Assembly (NCBI GenBank): GCA_964019135.1
Contig: OZ025258.1
Span: 30,188,186-30,252,185 of the forward strand
Origin: Arenicola marina
Lineage: Eukaryota > Annelida > Polychaeta > Arenicolidae
Length of the DNA: 64,000 nucleotides
Direction of reading: 5' to 3'
The position numbers and the translations under genes are program-made. Numbering within the stretch: the first letter of the stretch is position 1; each line of letters begins with the position of its first letter. Of this stretch, positions 24,769 to 54,800 are shown one piece after another. The notes beneath the pieces were generated by a model. It was given only the letters and a program-made list of their open reading frames with translations, was not told the origin of the DNA and did not search any database.

Positions 24769-25953
24769 TTACGTCAGACCGAGAATCCGTCGTTCTCTGG
24801 GACCGGTAATGCAGTTGCCTCCCTGGACCCAGTATTGGTACACATCGAATCGCGTTTTGTATTTATAATGAGGATCGTGTAATATTTCACATAGTTTACA
24901 AAAGCCTTCTGGTCGTATGACCTGAATTCTTTCTACCTTAGACTTTGGGGATTTCTTCCAGTCAAAATATTCCAAATAGGCAGTGACATTTTCGTCCAGG
25001 TACTTCAGGTAGCCCGCCAAGTGGCGAGGAGAGCCAAAATCGCTGACATCGATGTAGGAATGGGGCGGCATATATTTTCGGTAATTAGCCAATCCAAGGA
25101 CCACTGGGATTATGGGATACTCTAGTGGGCGAAAAGCCTTCTCCGTGACGTAATCAATGCACATGGTATTCTCAAAGGCAAGGTAAAACTTGTATGTGTC
25201 GGCTATCATGTTGTAACATTCCTTAGACTTGGGACAGGAGAGGTTTCCGCAGGCCCCATACACGTCCACAGAGACAAATTTTGACAAACTGGCCACATAG
25301 TTATTCCTCTGACTTGACACCCGGCAGTTGCTGACCAACCATGCGGCCATTTTGGATTTCGCCGCGACCTGAGTGGTCGTTGGGACGGTATTCCGCACGT
25401 ACTGGTTCGGGGGATTCCGGACTATCCTCCCTAGCGGTATGTAAACATCGGTCTCTGGATCATTCAAGTAGGTGAAGGTCAAGTTGAAAATATCCCCATA
25501 TAGCTGCAAATCCCGAGCAGCTCGCTTCGGGGCCTCGAATGAGAGGAAGACATACTTTTGACCTTGACGCGACCTCCGCGGGATAGCATCCGGGCTTGTC
25601 GGATCCACTCCGAGTCCCATGTGAATCACCACGGCGTCCGCTGATCCCGGGTCCTCTGTCCTGCTTGTCGTCGTTCGACACGTGTTCACGGAACAGTTGT
25701 GGGCGATAAAAGGGTCACGGCCGAGACCAAAGTTGTACGTCCAGGAGGCGCCGTGGAATTTGTACAGAAATAAAATAGTCTTCAGTGGAGGTTCCTTGCT
25801 GATCCAGCCCCAGCGTGTCAAGTGATCGCCGGGCCAGTGTTCCGTGGTAGACCAGAGGATCAGCAGCCCGCAGACAGCGAGAGTCAGGACGAAGGCGAAG
25901 GTTATAGGCGCTTTGAAGGAGACACATTTGCACCACGGCATTCCTGGCGTCAT
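24769..25953 (-). CDS. alpha-1,3-fucosyltransferase (GT10), Golgi type II membrane enzyme
   Basis: 394 residues in one coding exon. GT10 enzymes transfer fucose from GDP-fucose to N-acetylglucosamine-containing glycans in the Golgi. The N terminus is a short cytosolic tail followed by one membrane anchor (about 15-35, core FAFVLTLAVCGLLILW). The catalytic part carries the family hallmark FYLAFENT (about 256-263) and DYVTEKAFRPL (267-277), then IPVVLG, and a C-terminal FCKLCEILHD Cys pair. The frame extends 18 codons further upstream, but a good acceptor (TATTTCAG|GAGACC, exon edge 25970) lies there, so I start at the Met at 25953, just before the anchor, and infer a 5' UTR intron. The length matches the family. 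The exact linkage made (Lewis-type or core) cannot be read. Confidence 0.9.
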   Translation of the reverse strand: MTPGMPWCKCVSFKAPITFAFVLTLAVCGLLILWSTTEHWPGDHLTRWGWISKEPPLKTILFLYKFHGASWTYNFGLGRDPFIAHNCSVNTCRTTTSRTEDPGSADAVVIHMGLGVDPTSPDAIPRRSRQGQKYVFLSFEAPKRAARDLQLYGDIFNLTFTYLNDPETDVYIPLGRIVRNPPNQYVRNTVPTTTQVAAKSKMAAWLVSNCRVSSQRNNYVASLSKFVSVDVYGACGNLSCPKSKECYNMIADTYKFYLAFENTMCIDYVTEKAFRPLEYPIIPVVLGLANYRKYMPPHSYIDVSDFGSPRHLAGYLKYLDENVTAYLEYFDWKKSPKSKVERIQVIRPEGFCKLCEILHDPHYKYKTRFDVYQYWVQGGNCITGPRERRILGLT

Positions 25954-26519
25954 CTTCAATAAAGGGTCTCCTGAAATACAAACCTGGCTTAAACAATGTC
26001 TGCTCATATCTGACGCACTGGCTAAACACCCACTCTGATGGGGCTAAATCATTACTGTACATACGCGGATTCACTGGTTACAAGATACCGACCCTTGGTA
26101 AGATAATATATGCCAACGAATTGCACCCTATGCCCTCATATAATTGAATGCCAACGATATTACAAATCTCGTTAATAGTATATGACGTCTGAACAAACAA
26201 AACTGGGTCAATGTCCACCCGACATAACACGTTTTTCAGGAATTAAAATAGTAGACAGAAAACCGGCAACTGGAGCATATAATACCTTACACATATATGT
26301 AACGATGTAGCCCCATCTGAATGTTCTAAACGTCATTCCCCTGTTTTAGTGAAGTATATACCTTTCCCCGATTTTTAGTCCTATCTTTCGAACTCAGCCT
26401 GTCGAGGGCCATTCCGAATCTGTTGATAAATTGGGAAGTCGATATCTGAAAGCGTCTGATAGTTATCGCTGTTACAAACAGACAGACAGAATACACCGAG
26501 TTATAAAGAAAGTCGTAGA

Positions 26520-29500
26520 TAATGACACGGTGAGCCCGCCCCATTACCGCTATAATGACAATGTGACCCCACCCCATTGCCGCTATAATGACACGGTGAG
26601 CCCACCCCATTGCCGCTATAATGACACGGTGAGCCCACCCAATTGCCGCAATAATGACACGGTGAGCCCACCCCATTGCCGCTATAATGACACGGTGAGC
26701 CCACCCCATTGCCGCTATAATGACACGGTGAGCCCACCCCATTGCCGCAATAATGACACAGTGAGCCCACCCCATTGCCGCTATAATGACACGGTGAGAC
26801 CACCCCATTGCCGCTATAATGACACGGTGAGCCCACCCCATTGCCGCTATAATGACACGGTGAGCCCACCCCATTGCCGCTATAATGACACGGTGAGCCC
26901 ACCCCAGTGCCGCAATAATGACACGGTGAGCCCACTATATTGCTGCTATAATGATACGGTGAGCCCACCCCATTGCCGCAATAATGACACGGTGAGCCCA
27001 CCCCATTGCCGCAATAATGACACGGTGAGCCCACTATATTGCTGCTATAATGATACGGTGAGCCCACCCCATTGCCGCTATAATGACACGGTGAGCCCAC
27101 CCAATTGCCGCTATAATGACACGGTGAGCCCACCCCATTGCCGCAATAATGACACGGTGAGCCCACCCCATTGCCGCTATAATGACACGGTGAGCCCACC
27201 CCATTGCCGCTATAATGACACGGTGAGCCCACCCCATTGCCGCTATAATGACACAGTGAGCCCACCCCATTGCCGCTATAATGACACGGTGAGCCCACCC
27301 CATTGCCGCAATAATGACACGGTGAGCCCACCCCATTGCCGCTATAATGACACGGTGAGCCCACCCCATTGCCGCTATAATGACACGGTGAGCCCACCCC
27401 ATTGCCTCTATAATGACACGGTGAGCCCACCCCATTGCCGCAATAATGACACGGTGAGCCCACCCCATTGCCTCTATAATGACACGGTGAGCCCACCTCA
27501 TTGCCTCTATAATGACACGGTGAGCCCACCCAATTGCCGCTATAATGACACGGTGAGCCCACCCCATTGCCGCAATAATGACACAGTGAGCCCACCCCAT
27601 TGCCGCTATAATGACACGGTGAGCCCACCCCATTGCCGCTATAATGACACGGTGAGCCCACCCCATTGCCGCTATAATGACACAGTGAGCCCACCCCATT
27701 GCCGCTATAATGACACGGTGAGCCCACCCCATTGCCGCAATAATGACACGGTGAGCCCACCCCATTGCCGCTATAATGACACGGTGAGCCCACCCCATTG
27801 CCGCTATAATGACACGGTGAGCCCACCCCATTGCCTCTATAATGACACGGTGAGCCCACCCCATTGCCGCAATAATGACACGGTGAGCCCACCCCATTGC
27901 CTCTATAATGACACGGTGAGCCCACCCCATTGCCGCTATAATGACACGGTGAGCCCACCCCATTGCCGCTATAATGACACGGTGAGCCCACCCCATTGCC
28001 TCTATAATGACACGGTGAGCCCACCCCATTGCCGCAATAATGACACGGTGAGCCCACCCCATTGCCTCTATAATGACACGGTGAGCCCACCCCATTGCCT
28101 TTATAATGACACGGTGAGCCCACCCCATTGCCGCTATAATGACACGGTGAGCCCACCCCATTGCCGCTATAATGACACGGTGAGCCCACCCCATTGCCTC
28201 TATAATGACACGGTGAGCCCACCCCATTGCCGCTATAATGACACGGTGAGCCCACCCCATTGCCGCAATAATGACACGGTGAGCCCACTATATTGCTGCT
28301 ATAATGATACGGTGAGCCCACCCCATTGCCGCTATAATGACACGGTGAGCCCACCCAATTGCCGCTATAATGACACGGTGAGCCCACCCAATTGCCGCTA
28401 TAATGACACGGTGAGCCCACCCAATTGCCTCTATAATGACACGGTGAGCCCACCCCATTGCCGCTATAATGACACGGTGAGCCCACCCCATTGCCGCAAT
28501 AATGACACGGTGAGCCCACTATATTGCTGCTATAATGATACGGTGAGCCCACCCCATTGCCGCTATAATGACACGGTGAGCCCACCCAATTGCCGCTATA
28601 ATGACACGGTGAGCCCACCCCATTGCCGCTATAATGACACAGTGAGCCCACCCAATTGCCGCTATAATGACACGGTGAGCCCACCCAATTGCCGCTATAA
28701 TGACACGGTGAGCCAACCCAATTGCCTCTATAATGACACGGTGAGCCCACCCCATTGCCGCTATAATGACACGGTGAGCCCACCCCATTGCCGCTATAAT
28801 GACACGGTGAGCCCACCCAATTGCCGCTATAATGACACGGTGAGCCCACTATATTGCTGCTATAATGACACGGTGAGCCCACTCTATTGCCGCTATAATG
28901 ACACGGTGAGCCCACCCCATTGTCGCAATAATGACACGGTGAGCCCACCCCATTGCCGCCATAATGACACGGTGAGCCCACCCCATTGCCGCAATAATGA
29001 CACAGTGAGCCTACCCCATTGCCGCAATAATGACACGGTGAGCCTACCCCATTGCCGCTATAATGACACGGTGAGCTCACTACATTGCCGCAATAATGAC
29101 ACGGTGAGCCCACCCCATTGCCGCTATAATGACACGGTGAGCCCACTATATTGCTGCTATAATGACACGGTGAGCCCACCCCATTGCTGCAATAATGACA
29201 CGGTGAGCCCACCCCATTGCCGCCATAATGACACGGTGAGCCCACCCCATTGCCGCAATAATGACACAGTGAGCCTACCCCATTGCCGCAATAATGACAC
29301 GGTGAGCTCACTACATTGCCGCAATAATGACACGGTGAGCCCACCCCATTGCCGCTATAATGACACGGTGAGCCCACTATATTGCCGCAATAATGACACG
29401 GTGAGCCCACTATATTGCTGCTATAATGACACGGTGAGCCCACTATATTGCTGCTATAATGATACGGTGAGCCCACCCCATTGCCGCTATAATGACACGG

Positions 29501-30925
29501 TGAGCCCACCCCATTGCTGCTATAATGACACGGTGAGCCCACCCCATTGCCGCAATAATGACACAGTGAGCCCACCCCATTGTCGCAATAATGACACGGT
29601 GAGCCCACCCCATTGCCGCCATAATGACAGGTTGAGCCTACCCCATTGCCGCTATAATGACACGGTGAGCCCACCCCATTGCCGCTATAATGACACGGTG
29701 AGCCCACCCCATTGCCGCAATAATGACACGGTGAGCCCACCCCATTGCCGCTATAATGACACGGTGAGCCCACCCCATTGCCGCTATAATGACACGGTGA
29801 GCCCACTATATTGCCGCAATAATGACACGGTGAGCCCACTATATTGCTGCTATAATGACACGGTGAGCCCACCCCATTGCTGCAATAATGACTCGATGAG
29901 CCCACCCCATTGCTGCAATAATGACTCGATGAGCACACCCCATTGCCGCTATAATGACACGGTGAGCCCACCCCATTGCCGCTATAATGACACAGTGAGC
30001 CTACCCCATTGCCGCAATAATGACACGGTGAGCCCACCCCATTGCCGCTATAATGACACGGTGAGCCCACTATGTTGCTGCTATAATGACACGGTGAGCC
30101 CACTATATTGCTGCTATAATGACACGGTGAGCCCACCCCATTGCCGCTATAATGACACGGTGAGCCCACCCCATTGCCGCAATAATGACACGGTGAGCCC
30201 ACCCCATTGCCGCTATAATGACACGGTGAGCCCACCCCATTGCCGCTATAATGACACGGTGAGCCCACTATATTGCCGCAATAATGACACGGTGAGCCCA
30301 CTATATTGCTGCTATAATGACACGGTGAGCCCACCCCATTGCTGCAATAATGACTCGATGAGCACACCCCATTGCTGCAATAATGACTCGATGAGCACAC
30401 CCCATTGCCGCTATAATGACACGGTGAGCCCACCCCATTGCCGCAATAATGACACAGTGAGCCCACCCCATTGCCGCAATAATGACACGGTGAGCCCACC
30501 CCATTGCCGCAATAATGACACGGTGAGCCCACCCCATTGCCGCAATAATGACACGGTGAGCCCACCCCATTGCCGCAATAATGACACGGTGAGCCTACCC
30601 CATTGCCACAATAATGACACGGTGAGCCCACTACATTGCCGCAATAATGACACGGTGAGCCCACTATATTGCTGCTATAATGACACGGTGAGCCCACTAT
30701 ATTGCTGCTATAATGACACGGTGAGCCCACCCCATTGCCGCTATAATGACACGGTGAGCCCACTATATTGCTGCAATAATGACTCGATGAGCACACCCCA
30801 TCGCTGCAATAATGACTCGATGAGCACACCCCATCGCTGCAATAATGACTCGATGAGCACACCCCATCGCTGCAATAATGACTCGATGAGCACACCCCAT
30901 CGCTGCAATAATGACTCGATGAGCA
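26520..30925. repeat. 4.4-kb minisatellite array, 33-bp unit, about 130 copies
   Basis: Unit: TATAATGACACGGTGAGCCC followed by ACCCCATTGCCGC, with recurrent variants (TATAAT/AATAAT; CCCCAT/CCCAAT/CTATAT; GACTCGATGAGCACA near the right end). Because 33 is a multiple of 3 and the unit lacks stops in several frames, frames of more than 1400 codons are open on both strands. These translate to an 11-residue string and I do not call them genes. Variant blocks recur in the same order (for example near 26990, 28260 and 28494, the last two 7 units apart), showing higher-order repeat growth. A diverged single unit lies at about 32335-32375. Confidence 0.95.
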
Positions 30926-45856: not shown

Positions 45857-48800
45857 CTGGGGACAGCAGGCAAGGCACAGTCAGCAAAGGCTATATGCAT
45901 TGGATTTAGAACACTAAACCTGGCTTGACAAAGACGTGTTGCGTACGTACCACCATTCTCCGCATTAGTATCGCTGGGGAAACAACCCCACTTTGGTTCA
46001 GAGTAAGCGATAGCCGCACTTAAGCTGGTACCTCAGATATAGTGTGAACGTACAGGCCAAGAAGTAGCGCAAGTGCCTCTATAATCTACTCCAGACGTGT
46101 ACTTGTTCTTTAACGCCGTCTGTTCGTCTCCCGCCGTGGTAAGTGACGTTTCCGGCATGATTATCTTCACATATGAAGAAAAGGCGCAATTTCTACGCGC
46201 AAATAGTACGTATCCATGTTATGCAGGTCACAGATCCCATGGTTGCCTTTCAAAAGAGCCCCGAGGACATGGCTCTATATCCCCGGCGGCACTTCCCATT
46301 TTCCGCGATATGACCGAAATAGATTCAGGCGCCCTACTCCAAAAGGAATAGCAGCAATCCCCAACGCTTGGCCTAGAGGTACCGACCTGATGGACTGGTT
46401 GAGAGACTCGACCTCCTGCCTCAACACCTCAGCCTCGTTCTGCATCTGGCCTCGCTCCTCCTTCAGCTTCTTGCAGTACTCGGCAGCTACAAGGACACGT
46501 CACACCAGTGAAAACAGCCCAGCAACGTCTCCTTTACACTAAGTATTCATCAGCAATCGCAGATCAGCGCATTTTATTTTTTCTCACATCGCGATACGCG
46601 TAAATAAATACTAGTTGTGAGAGATTAACTTCGCATATTGGCCACTGGTTTATCAAGGAGTAAATCTGCAATATAAGTTTCAATTAACCACGAGAGCTGG
46701 ACTTCATCGGCATAATAGGCAACACATTTTAAGCCCGGAAGACGTCAAAATAAGGCTTCTATACGTTCTTCCGCAATTAATTGTAAGCAAACTGTGTACA
46801 ACTTTGCTATAATGCCAAAACTTAAATTTTGTGGGACCGCAGACTAAGTCACATCATACGTGTAAAACGTCACTTCAAACGTTCTAGGATTATCAAACAA
46901 AGTCATCAGCAGCATACAGAGCATAAGCCAAGGATGAGGAAAAGTTCGAGAACTAACATGCACCCGACCCCCCATAGCCAAGACAATAAATGCAACAAAA
47001 TATTCATAGAGAATAGAAAAGATATTGACATGGACGGATACTTTAATGCACCTGGATGGGGGACTTTAATACCCCTAGATTTATGAAATTGGATGGTTAC
47101 TTGTCTGACAGTGACTGTCTATAACAAGGGCCCCAGCCTTTATGAGACGTCCATGGCAACCCATCTTGCCCAGACCACCGGATACCCTCCACTCTAGCGT
47201 CACCCCTACTGCTTACCCTTCTGTAACGTGTTCGAGATGCTCGACTTGCTGCTGTTGCTGTTCTTCAGGGCGGGCACGAGCTGGTGCATCATCTCGAAGC
47301 CGACCTGGACAGGGCACGAGGCGAGAGGAGGGAAGGTTGAGCGGGCAGGTCAAGAGAGGCAGGGATAGCAGGTCAGCGCAAACAGGCAGATACTGACGTA
47401 TATTGGCCACGCCACACCGTAATAATGCATTCCATTACATGGCACCGGGAAATGCGGAAAACAGGCACATTACGGTCACTGAAACGGTACAGCTCGTGAA
47501 TTCGATAACTGTAGCTGGTGAGTTAGTTATTACAGCTGGCAAATCAAACAATTATAAGGGGGTGGTTGGTTGTATATTAAGGAAGCTTTAACCACGTTTG
47601 GTCATATCGTGTGAATGGCACAAGTAAAGGAAAGTGGAGCCATGTCCCCGGGGGTAACCCCCTACTCTTTGCGAAGAAAGACATGGGATGTTTATCCTGC
47701 GACCACACAGACATGGCCACAGCGGGCTCGAACCACCGATACATGTGCCGCTCTCAGGTAACCAGAGCGCCGAAATCCAGCGCTCTAGCCCACTGAGCTA
47801 TCGGGCCGGCCCCTTCTAGTGGTGGAGTCGGTTATTACAGTTCCCAAAGTCTATCACAGCTGTGGCGGATTTCACGAACGCAGTTTAGCCGACTACGGGG
47901 CTTAGTCGACTAAATTTACCACGTGCGATTTTAGCCGACAAAGTCCCGTAGCCGGTTAAACTATGCACGAGAAATAGGCCCCTGGTAAATCGACCATCAG
48001 AACATAAAAGATGTCTCTGTGACGCCCATCCATCCCATTACTACGAAGGCACCGCGTGGGACGCCAATAATCAGCCCAAAATAGTCTTCAAGGGTGAAAA
48101 TAATCGTGCTTTGTGGAAGCAAACAATCTCAGTTTTATCGGTAATGTTAGTAGAAGCCTCGATCACATTCCACAGACGCCACTCCAACGACCGCCATCGT
48201 GCCACAGAAAGCATCAACATCATCCCATAAAGCACCCGTATCACCTCGACCTCTGCGTAACCTTCCATCAGCGCACGTGACTGCCTATCACTCGCTGACC
48301 GAGTCAATCCAAGGAATTTTAAATAATTGTTTGTGTGTTCATTTTGGAATATGTAGAGGTTTTGCTTCAAATGGCGTTCCATATGCACCATGCTGCAGGT
48401 CTGAGGTCACGTGGCTGACACACGTGGTCAGTCGGCTCACCTTTCAACAAGGAACTGGCCTTGCTGATTTTGGCCTGGGGTGTCTTACTCAGGCTCGGTA
48501 CAAGGTGGTGGAGCATTTCAAAGCCCATCTACCCGACATACGGAGAGGTCAGACAGAATACAAGCACGTTTCTGCTTATATTCTAATGTAACTAACATAT
48601 GGGGCAAGGAAACAGAAGTATTACCCAACGAAAAATGTGTTTCCACTTCCGCCAGGGTAGAATTTACGCTTGACGAGATCGATTATTGCAATAAATTTTA
48701 GTCATACAAAAGCCAAGAGTTCTGCAGACTAAGCTGACAAGCGCTAACATGGAATGACCGTGACGAATCACGGGCATAAGTAAAGGTGAAAATAAGCGGG

Positions 48801-51800
48801 CATTTTTTCGTAAGTATCGGACAGCCAAAGGTAACTAGTTAACCGTTTTAAATTACTTTAAACCCCAACCGCCACAATTTAGCTTGTACAAATGCCATCT
48901 TGAATCAAAGACAACCTCGAACTGGACACTAGCCCGTGTTACGTCCCCTGAACGCACACTGACGCGCAATGATACAGCGGTACCAAGTCCTGGCACACTA
49001 ACGCGCAATGATACAGCGGTACTAAGTCCACGCACACTGACGCGCAATGATACAGCGGTACCAAGTCCTGGCACACTAACGCGCAATGATACAGCGGTAC
49101 TAAGTCCACGCACACTAACGCGCAATGATACAGCGGTACCAAGTCCACGCACACTGACGCGCAATGATACAGCGGTACCAAGTCCACGCACACTGACGCG
49201 CAATGATACAGCGGTACCAAGTCCACGCACACTGACGCGCAAGGATACAGCGGTACCAAGTCCACGCACACTGACGCGCACGGATACAGAGGTACCAAGT
49301 CCACGCACACTGACGCGCAATGATACAGCGGTACCAAGTCCACGCACACTGACGCGCACGGATACAGAGGTACCAAGTCCACGCACACTGACGCGCAAGG
49401 ATACAGCGGTACCAAGTCCACGCACACTGACGCGCAATGATACAGCGGTACCAAGTCCACGCACACTGACGCGCAATGATACAGAGGTACCAAGTCCACG
49501 CACACTAACGCGCAATGATACAGCGGTACCAAGTCCTGGCACACTAACGCGCAATGATACAGAGGTACCAAGTCCACGCACACTGACGCGCAATGATACA
49601 GCGGTACCAAGTCCACGCACACTGACGCGCACGGATACAGAGGTACCAAGTCCACGCACACTGACGCGCAAGGATACAGCGGTACCAAGTCCACGCACAC
49701 TGACGCGCAATGATACAGCGGTACCAAGTCCACGCACACTGACGCGCAATGATACAGCGGTGCTCAGTCCTGGCACACTAACGCGCAATGATACAGCGGT
49801 ACCAAGTCCTGGCACACTAACGCGCAATGATACAGCGGTACCAAGTCCACGCACACTGACGCGTAATGATACAGCGGTACTAAGTCCACGCACACTGACG
49901 CGTAATGATACAGCGGTACCAAGTCCACGCACACTGATGCGCAAGGATACAGCGGTACCAAGTCCACGCACACTGACGCGCAATGATACAGCGGTACTAA
50001 GTCCACGCACACTGACGCGCAATGATACAGCGGTACCAAGTCCACGCACACTGACGCGCACGGATACAGCGGTACCAAGTCCACGCACACTGACGCATAA
50101 TGATACAGCGGTACCAAGTCCACGCACACTGACGCGCACGGATACAGCGGTACCAAGTCCACGCACACTGACGCGTAATGATACAGCGGTGCTCAGTCCT
50201 GGCACACTAACGCGCAATGATACAGCGGTACCAAGTCCACGCACACTGACGCGTAATGATACAGCGGTACCAAGTCCACGCACACTGACGCGTAATGATA
50301 CAGCGGTACCAAGTCCACGCACACTGACGCGCAATGATACAGCGGTACCAAGTCCACGCACACTGACGCGTAATGATACAGCGGTACCAAGTCCACGCAC
50401 ACTGACGTGCAGTGATACAGCGGTACCAAGTCCACGCACACTGATGCGCAAGGATACAGCGGTACCAAGTCCACGCACACTGACGCGCAATGATACAGCG
50501 GTACTAAGTCCACGCACACTGACGCGCAATGATACAGCGGTACCAAGTCCACGCACACTGACGCGCACGGATACAGCGGTACCAAGTCCACGCACACTGA
50601 CGCGTAATGATACAGCGGTACCAAGTCCACGCACACTGACGCGCACGGATAGAGCGGTACCAAGTCCACGCACACTGACGCGTAATGATACAGCGGTGCT
50701 CAGTCCTGGCACACTAACGCGCAATGATACAGCGGTACCAAGTCCACGCACACTGACGCGCAATGATACAGCGGTACCAAGTCCACGCACACTGACGCGT
50801 AATGATACAGCGGTACCAAGTCCACGCACACTGACGCGTAATGATACAGCGGTACCAAGTCCACGCACACTGACGCGCAATGATACAGCGGTACCAAGTC
50901 CACGCACACTGACGCGTAATGATACAGCGGTACCAAGTCCACGCACACTGACGCGTAATGATACAGCGGTACTAAGTCCACGCACACTGACGCGCAATGA
51001 TACAGCGGTACCAAGTCCACGCGCAAGGATACAGCGGTACCAAGCTGACACACTGACGCGCAAGGATACAGCGGTGCTGAGTCCTGGCACACTGACGAGC
51101 AATAATACAGCGGTACCAAGTACACGCACACTGACGTGCAATGATACAGCGGTACCAAGTCCTGGCACACTCCCCGGGACACGTACCTTGATGTTGCCAC
51201 GACGTTTCTTCTCGGCCGTGATGTGGGAGGCTCGGCGGATCTCCTTGTACGGGGTGCGCTCTCCCTCACCCTTCCCTCCTATCGACTTGGGCGACTGCGG
51301 ACAAATAACATCGATAGTTTCAAGTCGAGCAGCAGACTATGATCTTAGTGTTTCACGAAAAAAAAAACATGATTGGAGTCAGAAGCGCAGCTATTTATAT
51401 TTGCGATGATCACGCGCTCTTGTTTTGTTGTAACTGTGGGCGTCAAGTCCGGTTTGAATATATCGTCCTCTGATTGGTCAATCGCTGACACACCTCCAAA
51501 AACGGCTGTCGCCTGGTTAACCGGCAAAATCGTGGCTGGTGGTCACTTCTAAATTATATTGTGAGCTATAGAATGGACGGAAAATTCCGTAATTTGGAGG
51601 ATGGACACTTCGGTATTATATGAATCGGTAAAGCAGCGTTAGAGGCCAGGCTGGCGGATTCTTTTAATCAAATCTAACATTTTGCATGCAACTGTAAAAT
51701 GAGGGAAGGGCAATACAGAAAACAAAAATGTACAGTAAATGAAATAAACCCGGTCACCCCTGTTAAATAATTGTATGTTCCTAGTGTACAGTTTATAACT

Positions 51801-54800
51801 TCACTTTATGATGGTTCCATACTAATCTCTCATAGCCTTGCTTGCTGGATGCAAGGTACTTTCATCTTACTCTTTATCATATCATTACTTCCTAACCACT
51901 GCGTCATGGAACATCCAAGTTATGAGGTCTTATTTGCTACATATAATGTTTACACTTAAAAAGTATATTTTCTACATATTTTCTTCCTACAGTGGGGGAA
52001 AAGATGGATGAACAAATTAGCACTTAGGCCTCTACCGGGGTGCCAATCTCCAATGATAACGAAATGAAAGTTGCGTGAATACAAAATGCCGAGACTGGAG
52101 TTGCCAAGCATGGAAGCGGAAGCCAGGTCTGAAGCTCAGTCGGCGACAGACCTATGTACCCCTGGCATACGTAGACCCTGTATATGTTCACGTGACGACC
52201 TCTCACCTCATCCAAGCCCAGAGTACCTGATCCTGCGGATTCGGCACTGGTGTGGCGCGAGCGGCAGCGCTCCTGGAAGAAATGGGTTAGCCCGTTAAGA
52301 TTCCTTATGTCTAAGGATTAGAACATTCAGTGTTAGTGAGAGAACAAAAATATAATCAAGCGAATATATTTTTCATTAAAAACAAACACAACATTTTTTT
52401 TTTCCGCCATACAGAGTGACACTGAGATAGGCAGGAGCCCAAATATAGGAAAGGAAGACTGCGTATTTCAACGTAAAAGATCAACATCAACATGTCATCT
52501 TTTGACAGGCATTTAATCCAAAAACTACGAAAACATGAAAGAATGCCAGCCCCTGTAAATGTCGAAATAAACGTTATTGTGTGATGCGGATTAGTGCTAC
52601 ACATGCAGCTGCTAGAATAACTGACATTGACATTAATAATAATCTGACGTCGTTAAGAACACGAGAGAGAGCAAACAACAACCACTGTGGTCAGTGTCGC
52701 TTCGCGCGTTTATTCACCGATGAATGGGCGTTTTAGCTAACGTCTGGTTCTGGCTAACTATAAATGAGCAACAGCGGGCCGATGACCCCGCCGCCTGGTG
52801 AATGGTGTGTGAACCAATCCCCACACGCAGGGTGGTCGAGCACAGAAGCAGGGTCTGTGGGTCTCAAGCTGGGGAGACCCTCAGGCCCACACGCAGGGTG
52901 GTCGCGGACCGAACCAAGGTCTGTGGGTCTCAAGCTTGGGAGACCCTCAAGCCAAACAACGGGACGTATCAGGTGGACATTTAGCATGCCTATGAGCAGC
53001 TTTGTCTGGGACGCTTGTTGTACGTTGATGTTGTATGCCATCTGTGTACACGTGAAGGTGTGCACACAGAGTGTACAGAGGATGTATGGACAGAGCCTGC
53101 TGAGGGCGTACTCACCCCATCGATGAGGTATTCTGGAGAGTGTACAGTGTACAGCGAGTGTATATACAGAGGCTGCTGAGGGCGTACTCACCCCGTCGAT
53201 GAGGTATTCTGGAGAGTTGGTAAACGTGTACTGAGGGCTGCTGGGCGCCGAAAACACTGAAGAGAAAGTTAAAAAAACTAACGTTATTCACAGACAGAAC
53301 AACAAACGGGAAATCCCTTTCAGCTCTTCCCGCCACTTGTATACATTACATGACCGCTTCTGTACACACATATTGGGTAGCATATTGTCTATTTTCCCTT
53401 TTCCGTAGGCACATATTTGGCCTATGATTACGAAGTCCCTTTTTTGGACAATATACAATTCTTTTTACTTGTACATACATATTTGGCACATTATTGAAAC
53501 GTTTCTACAGAATTTGGCTTCAAATAGGTTGCGATGGATTTTAACAATTGACTGGATCAGAAAATATAGAAACAATCTCATCTTGCAGTCAAAAAACAAG
53601 AAAACATGATCATAATATTATAGCCATAGTGACATGTTACACCGGAGCCCTGACTCACCACCTGTGGTCTGGTTACTGGGAGAGAGATACTGTAAAGACC
53701 CAGACCCAAAAAGGACCCAGAATGACTGGTGCCCTGATTGACATTCTGCGGTCCGGTTACTGGGCCGGAGAGGTACTGTATATGACCCAGAATGCCTGGT
53801 CCCCTGACTCACCCGTGGTCTGGTTACTGGGGGGAGAAGTACTGTATATGACCCAGAATAATTGGTGCCCTGACTCACCTCCTGTGGTCTGGTTACTGGG
53901 GGGGGGGGGGTACTGTATATGACCCAGAATGCCTGGTGCCCCGACTCACCTCCTGTGGTCTGGTTGCTGGGGAGAGAGTCACTGCATATGACCCAGAATG
54001 ACTGGTGCCCTGACTCACCTCCTGTGGTCTGGTTACTGGGGAGAGTCACTGCATATGACCCAGAATGACTGGTGCCCTGACTCACCTCCTGTGGTCTGGT
54101 TACTAAGGGGGGGGGGGGGGGTACTGTATATGACCCAGAATGCCTGGTGCCCTGACTCACCTGTGGTCTGGTTAGTTGGGGAGAGGTACTGACCCAGAAT
54201 GACTGGTGCCCTGACTCACCTGTGGTCTGGTTGCTGGGGGGAGAGGAGTCCGGGAAGACGACAGAGGTCGCCCCAGTGGCGTGGCTGGCGGCGGCGATGA
54301 GAAGCTTCTTCTGGAAGTCGCTCACCTCGCTACTCTGGAAGAGACACGAGGACACAAGGACATGATGGGTGGGTGAAACATTAGGTTAAAGGAGTTGGTT
54401 GTACCCAGGAGGAGCCAAGTAACCAATTGGGTATCAATAATTATTGACGTCACGGTGACCTCATTCACACTGGGGGCAACAAACATGGTATATTGACACT
54501 TTAACACTTCTGTCTCCCTCAGATCTTTGCCGGTGCATAATTCAGTGTGGCAAGCTGTATTTGGCTTAGCTATCGAGGCGGCCCCCACGAGGACAATCGA
54601 AACCGGGAAATTATCAAGGCAGCTGGTTCGACGGCTTGTTATATACACCGCCAATAATAAATGTAATAAATAGATACTTCTGGACCGAAGTATGAGTCTA
54701 TTTTATGAAGTGAAATATAGGGTATCAAATCGCATAACATATTTTGCTGGCACAACTGCACAAGTACACGGGCATGACGCATGCCACCGCCTAGATAACC

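Follow-up and report, generated by a model that had tools for sequence, protein, structure and literature searches.

Two tandem 88-nucleotide exons probably give the Mondo gene of Arenicola marina two versions of its DNA-binding domain

Can a single gene of the Mondo (MLXIP/MLXIPL) type produce two versions of its basic helix-loop-helix (bHLH) domain by exchanging one exon for another? The question is raised by a locus of the polychaete Arenicola marina, contained in a stretch of 64,000 nucleotides (assembly GCA_964019135.1, contig OZ025258.1, positions 30,188,186 to 30,252,185) that we call the window, and in whose coordinates all positions are given. On its minus strand, two short exons, A (48528-48441; MGFEMLHHLVPSLSKTPQAKISKASSLLK) and B (47304-47217; VGFEMMHQLVPALKNSNSSKSSISNTLQK), sit between an exon ending at 51187 and an exon starting at 46486. 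Both are 88 nt long, open and bounded by GT-AG, with phase 0 in and phase 1 out, and the 29 residues that each encodes align without gaps and are identical at 13 of 29 positions. We interpret the pair as an old tandem exon duplication in the Mondo gene whose copies are used as mutually exclusive exons, a reading to which we assign a probability of about 75%. This arrangement had been proposed in an earlier note, whose coordinates, lengths, phases, frames, splice borders and count of identities were all reproduced from the sequence.

The likeness between A and B is far beyond chance. The minus strand has 113 open 88-nt stretches bounded by AG and GT or GC, and the plus strand 112; among all of these, A and B alone are similar to each other or to the ChREBP sequence (B scores 67 against A, and the runner-up scores 8). 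None of 2,000 first-order Markov shuffles of the interval 51186-46487 reached a score of 67 (the highest chance score being 19), and we regard the two exons as homologous. A third copy was not found by tblastn with A and B, which match each other at 30.4 bits, with all other matches at or below 17.3 bits. A search for relatives in viral contigs gave eight stretches matching a pattern, none of which was confirmed. When spliced between the flanking exons, either copy completes the domain: the Pfam HLH model (PF00010, cutoff 20.7 bits) is matched over positions 1-53 of 53 with both, at 50.2 bits with A and 43.9 bits with B. The best solved relative of both isoforms by phmmer is Max (30.0 bits for A and 30.9 bits for B).

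By the content of its predicted protein, the minus-strand gene that carries these exons is a Mondo gene. The human MondoA and ChREBP sequences used as probes, here and in all vertebrate comparisons below, are to be taken as provisional. Among the matches listed, they align collinearly with N-terminal conserved stretches, the basic region, the zipper exon and the DCD. The N-terminal Mondo conserved regions among these matches lie at 63118-63005, 62203-62102 and 59182-59084 (E values of 3e-7, 3e-5 and 8e-8 with MondoA); the first half of the N-terminal MondoA probe has no listed match in the window, so the gene probably starts beyond it. The basic region matches from 51237 (E 0.002 with ChREBP and 0.021 with MondoA) and belongs to the upstream constant exon (51294-51187), which ends in RRASHITAEKKRRGNIK, supplies the basic region and the start of helix 1, and has the donor AAG/GTACGT. 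The basic sequence AEKKRRGNIK is thus encoded outside the swapped exons. Downstream, the second constant exon (46486-46387; AEYCKKLKEERGQMQNEAEVLRQEVESLNQSI) supplies the remainder of helix 2 and the leucine zipper, with a match to the human Mondo sequences at 46484-46383. The DCD follows directly after the zipper, with listed matches at 45873-45724, 45401-45273 and 44877-44788 (62, 60 and 77% identity to ChREBP). Its predicted exons are 45856-45733 (VCQSQLPATGAPVTRQRVDRMKDMFEDFVRNRTLQNWKFWI; E 6.7e-19 with ChREBP) and 45401-45272, both with ends placed by GT-AG and frame, followed by the last coding exon (44879-44761; VLNSLRHLSTTTTILSDPARMPEQATQAVTGAPSAGLT and then a stop), with its start placed by AG and frame. 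The protein ends in VTGAPSAGLT.

How old is the duplication, and has selection kept both copies? Of the 29 sites at each codon position, 10 differ between the two exons at position 1, 10 at position 2 and 20 at position 3, corresponding to a proportion of synonymous differences of 0.83, which is saturated, and of nonsynonymous differences of 0.37. When A was evolved neutrally in simulation to about the same third-position divergence, 30% of the products remained open, and none of 20,000 was both open and as high in protein score as B. The 300-nt flanks of the two exons are no more similar than shuffles. Saturation at synonymous sites, set against a conserved protein, makes the duplication an old one. 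We conclude that the encoded protein of both has been maintained for most of the time since duplication, as judged from a comparison within one genome, with which recent disuse of one copy would be compatible. GC content at third codon positions (GC3) is 0.78 in the upstream exon, 0.69 in A, 0.97 in B and 0.91 in the downstream exon, and intron GC is 0.41-0.50 with the minisatellite described below left out. On these grounds A and B are two real, constrained and frame-incompatible alternative exons in the bHLH domain of Mondo. To this extent the interpretation offered in the earlier note stands; the exclusive splicing and the changed DNA binding that it also proposed are predictions, to which we now turn.

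The reading frame provides a plausible basis for exclusivity. Skipping both exons would add seven foreign residues followed by a stop, and including both would, as previously claimed, shift the frame, adding 48 foreign residues before a stop inside the downstream exon. Because these stops precede three predicted junctions, both types of mRNA should undergo nonsense-mediated decay. For human mutually exclusive exons, a frame shift leading to decay is among the routes to exclusivity given in PMC5740500. Splice sites were scored with approximate weight matrices and ranked against the minus-strand GTs or AGs of the window. The donors rank in the top 0.2% (A) and 0.8% (B) of GTs, and the acceptor of B, which is CU-rich and preceded by 86 nt without an AG, in the top 1.0% of AGs. 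Known splicing-factor motifs (GCAUG at 48393, UGCAUG at 46962, one CUCUCU at 47358 and one UACUAAC at 48152) are too few to carry meaning.

What would the exchange alter in the protein? Aligned to Max, exon A runs from the end of helix 1 across the loop to halfway along helix 2, so that each exon would supply this segment, with an invariant basic region before it and an invariant zipper after it. Where helix 2 starts, A has a Lys, matching an Arg in Max and a Lys in ChREBP. In the ungapped alignment to A, B has an Ile at this position, a Ser for the next Ala and a Ser/Asn-rich loop, and keeps a Lys three residues earlier. According to excerpts of PMC8431614, DNA is contacted in bHLH proteins by residues in the loop and in the second helix, with backbone contacts at positions 47-51, which we take to be the start of helix 2. 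We hypothesize that isoform A binds DNA in the usual way, its Lys touching the DNA backbone, and that isoform B still pairs with Mlx, its Ile and Ser/Asn-rich loop altering contacts to DNA and to the neighbouring dimer on tandem E-boxes. Exclusivity would be enforced mainly by the frame, through halted translation and decay of the mRNA after double inclusion or double skipping, with an additional regulated choice between the strong CU-rich acceptor of B and the weaker acceptor of A. The splice choice could thereby retune the sugar response, and one gene would probably make two DNA-binding versions.

Several observations weigh against this reading. It draws on the DNA of one genome, with splicing exclusivity and function deduced from it. 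The acceptor of A is moderate (top 21%), nearer to that of the next exon (14%) than to that of the upstream exon (2.5%). No competing RNA structure, a feature that only some mutually exclusive exons have, stood out among 10 intron-segment pairs in this one genome (z from -1.66 to 2.4, with 60 shuffles each), and the inverted repeats are weak (70-77% complementary). Steric exclusion was considered as a cause of exclusivity and rejected, the intron of 1136 nt between A and B (48440-47305) being presumably too long. Frame incompatibility alone would suit the layout of a regulatory poison exon as well. As for the protein, B scores slightly higher than A against Max, and the phmmer alignment of B to Max introduces a three-residue gap within helix 2 that sets the Lys of B on the Arg of Max. 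If that placement is right, B retains the basic residue; we consider it less likely and prefer the ungapped alignment, because A and B are equal in length and their shared end, LxK-AAEY, anchors the helix. The published loop result concerns Mlx rather than Mondo, and although modelling of the Mlx loop mutant lost inter-dimer contacts, an AlphaFold 3 model has no contacts via the Mlx loops (PMC11900861). The connection between loop and tetramer is thus tentative, and a change of DNA or tetramer binding by isoform B is plausible.

The same facts can be arranged in other ways. One exon might normally be used while the other serves as a poison exon, whose inclusion shifts the frame and lowers Mondo through decay, the protein similarity being a leftover of the duplication. 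The early stops after both A+B inclusion and double skipping suit such a scheme, but it has no need of amino acids conserved at saturated synonymous sites or of full HLH scores for both copies, and we consider it unlikely. That one copy has dropped out of splicing and survives as a relic is very unlikely: the weaker acceptor and lower GC3 of A (0.69 vs 0.97 in B) would point to A as the disused copy, yet both copies have kept their frame, length, phase and splice sites, and the neutral simulations never reproduced the pair (0/20000). Highly heterozygous marine genomes are prone to assembly artefacts in which two haplotypes of a single exon are placed in tandem; with 16 of 29 residues different, synonymous sites saturated and the 300-nt flanks unrelated, A and B are not alleles, and the chance that they result from such an error is negligible.

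Within the mutually exclusive reading, a special case is that B acts as a dominant-negative form that pairs with Mlx, binds DNA poorly and damps the sugar response. This is conceivable, if rather doubtful. In its favour, the ungapped alignment leaves B without the basic residue that A, ChREBP and Max have where helix 2 starts. Against it, the basic region is encoded by the upstream exon common to both isoforms; B retains a Lys three positions before, which phmmer places on the Arg of Max; and MondoA is likewise without Lys at the position in question and is nevertheless a functional activator.

The introns around the pair have features of their own. Four of the 31 CACGTG sites in the window fall in the A-B intron (48408, 48421, 48274 and 47920), where 0.55 would be expected at the window rate. 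The sites at 48408 and 48421 (48408-48426), located 15-33 nt downstream of the donor of A, form the only pair within 12 nt in the window; their spacing is 7 compared to 5 in the carbohydrate response element (ChoRE), and in this post hoc comparison any such pair has a probability of 0.17 when 31 sites are placed uniformly. The canonical ChoRE, in the relaxed form CAYGNGN5CNCNRTG, has no match in the window. Most of the intron preceding exon A is occupied by a minisatellite (48952-51171) of about 57 copies of a 39-bp unit. Since 39 is a multiple of three, the minisatellite does not interrupt the reading frame of the bHLH exon, which continues down to 48853 as part of an 827-codon minus-strand open reading frame. 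Further upstream, a 76-bp tandem repeat (53070-53217) duplicates the apparent end of an upstream exon and its donor, with PEYLIDG followed by GTGAGT twice, and the second GTGAGT, which lies 76 nt downstream, may be an alternative donor. The A-B intron also holds a tRNA-like stretch (47712-47811), by eye perhaps a tRNA-derived short interspersed element, to which ARAGORN and Rfam gave no match; scans of the whole window for Rfam families and tRNAs returned none.

Does the pair correspond to the two vertebrate Mondo proteins? MondoA (MLXIP) and ChREBP (MLXIPL) belong to the same family, with the same combination of Mondo conserved regions, bHLH-zipper and DCD. In global BLOSUM62 alignments, A scores 75 against ChREBP and 25 against MondoA, where a gap penalty applies since the MondoA loop is four residues shorter, and B scores 55 and 38, respectively. 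The sum of A-ChREBP and B-MondoA exceeds that of the crossed pairs by 33 (column-swap P 0.019; 0.006-0.019 over nine scoring settings), and shuffling of residues within the 16 differing columns gives P 0.0003 for A-ChREBP, 0.009 for B-MondoA and 0.10 for each crossed pair. Three residues are shared by A and ChREBP alone, one of them opposite the gap of MondoA, and one by B and MondoA alone (Asn, column 17), while the Thr and Gln near the end of B are common to both vertebrate proteins. Scores and shared residues thus favour ChREBP as the counterpart of A, and the link from B to MondoA is only a hint. The earlier note had compared A with MLXIP by way of the vertebrate stretch KVSKAT, a part of its argument that did not hold: we take KVSKAT to belong to ChREBP, MondoA presumably differing there, and A resembles the former and not the latter.

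It is tempting to extend this comparison to ancestry. The single Mondo of a pre-duplication chordate might already have spliced two DNA-binding forms, the vertebrate duplication then fixing the A type as ChREBP and the B type as MondoA. The residue pattern described above leans this way, but we regard the idea as a long shot, given the lone residue specific to B and MondoA against three for A and ChREBP, and given that the human sequences are provisional. If it were true, the tandem CACGTG just downstream of the donor of A might allow Mondo-Mlx to influence which of its own exons is spliced in.

The kind of exon swap proposed here is known from other genes. In TCF3 (E2A), the alternative exons 18A and 18B, which yield E12 and E47, also swap part of a bHLH domain. 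TCF3 differs in being a class I bHLH protein without a zipper and in not being a sugar sensor, and its swapped exons include the DNA-contacting basic region, whereas in this Mondo gene that region stays fixed and the exchange is confined to the segment running from the end of helix 1 through the loop into the start of helix 2. According to passages of PMC12585103, 18A and 18B are treated as mutually exclusive, and E12 and E47 differ in bHLH domain and DNA affinity. Tandem duplicated exon substitution, as in FYN and the CACNA1 genes, likewise involves adjacent homologous exons of which one is used at a time, and excerpts of PMC9741552 describe how paralogues can later retain one tandem exon each. 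Neither MLX in the main text of that paper nor MLXIP in the main text of PMC5740500 occurs. For vertebrate ChREBP, the described isoforms affect the N-terminus (ChREBP-beta). Vertebrate Mlxip and Mlxipl have 17 coding exons, and additional exons were searched for and none found, according to portions of PMC4766361, which mention no exon swap. PMC3323566, PMC7003098, PMC4892437 and PMC10970504 do not use the splicing terms sought in their main text, and a swappable bHLH exon in Mondo was not found among the papers listed by searches of open-access PubMed Central.

Elsewhere in the window, a minus-strand open reading frame of 424 residues (24769-26043) codes for a glycosyltransferase of family 10, a fucosyltransferase (199 bits in Pfam), and a 33-bp unit repeated in tandem about 133 times (26519-30924) lies within open frames of 1602 codons (plus strand) and 1482 codons (minus strand).

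Mondo/ChREBP makes gene expression respond to sugar levels. Were one gene able to exchange the loop and the beginning of helix 2 in this factor, cells could change its sugar-responsive tandem E-boxes with the sensor itself unchanged. More generally, the locus would offer a testable case of whether the alternative splice forms of a chordate gene that has not been duplicated prefigure the separation of MondoA from ChREBP.
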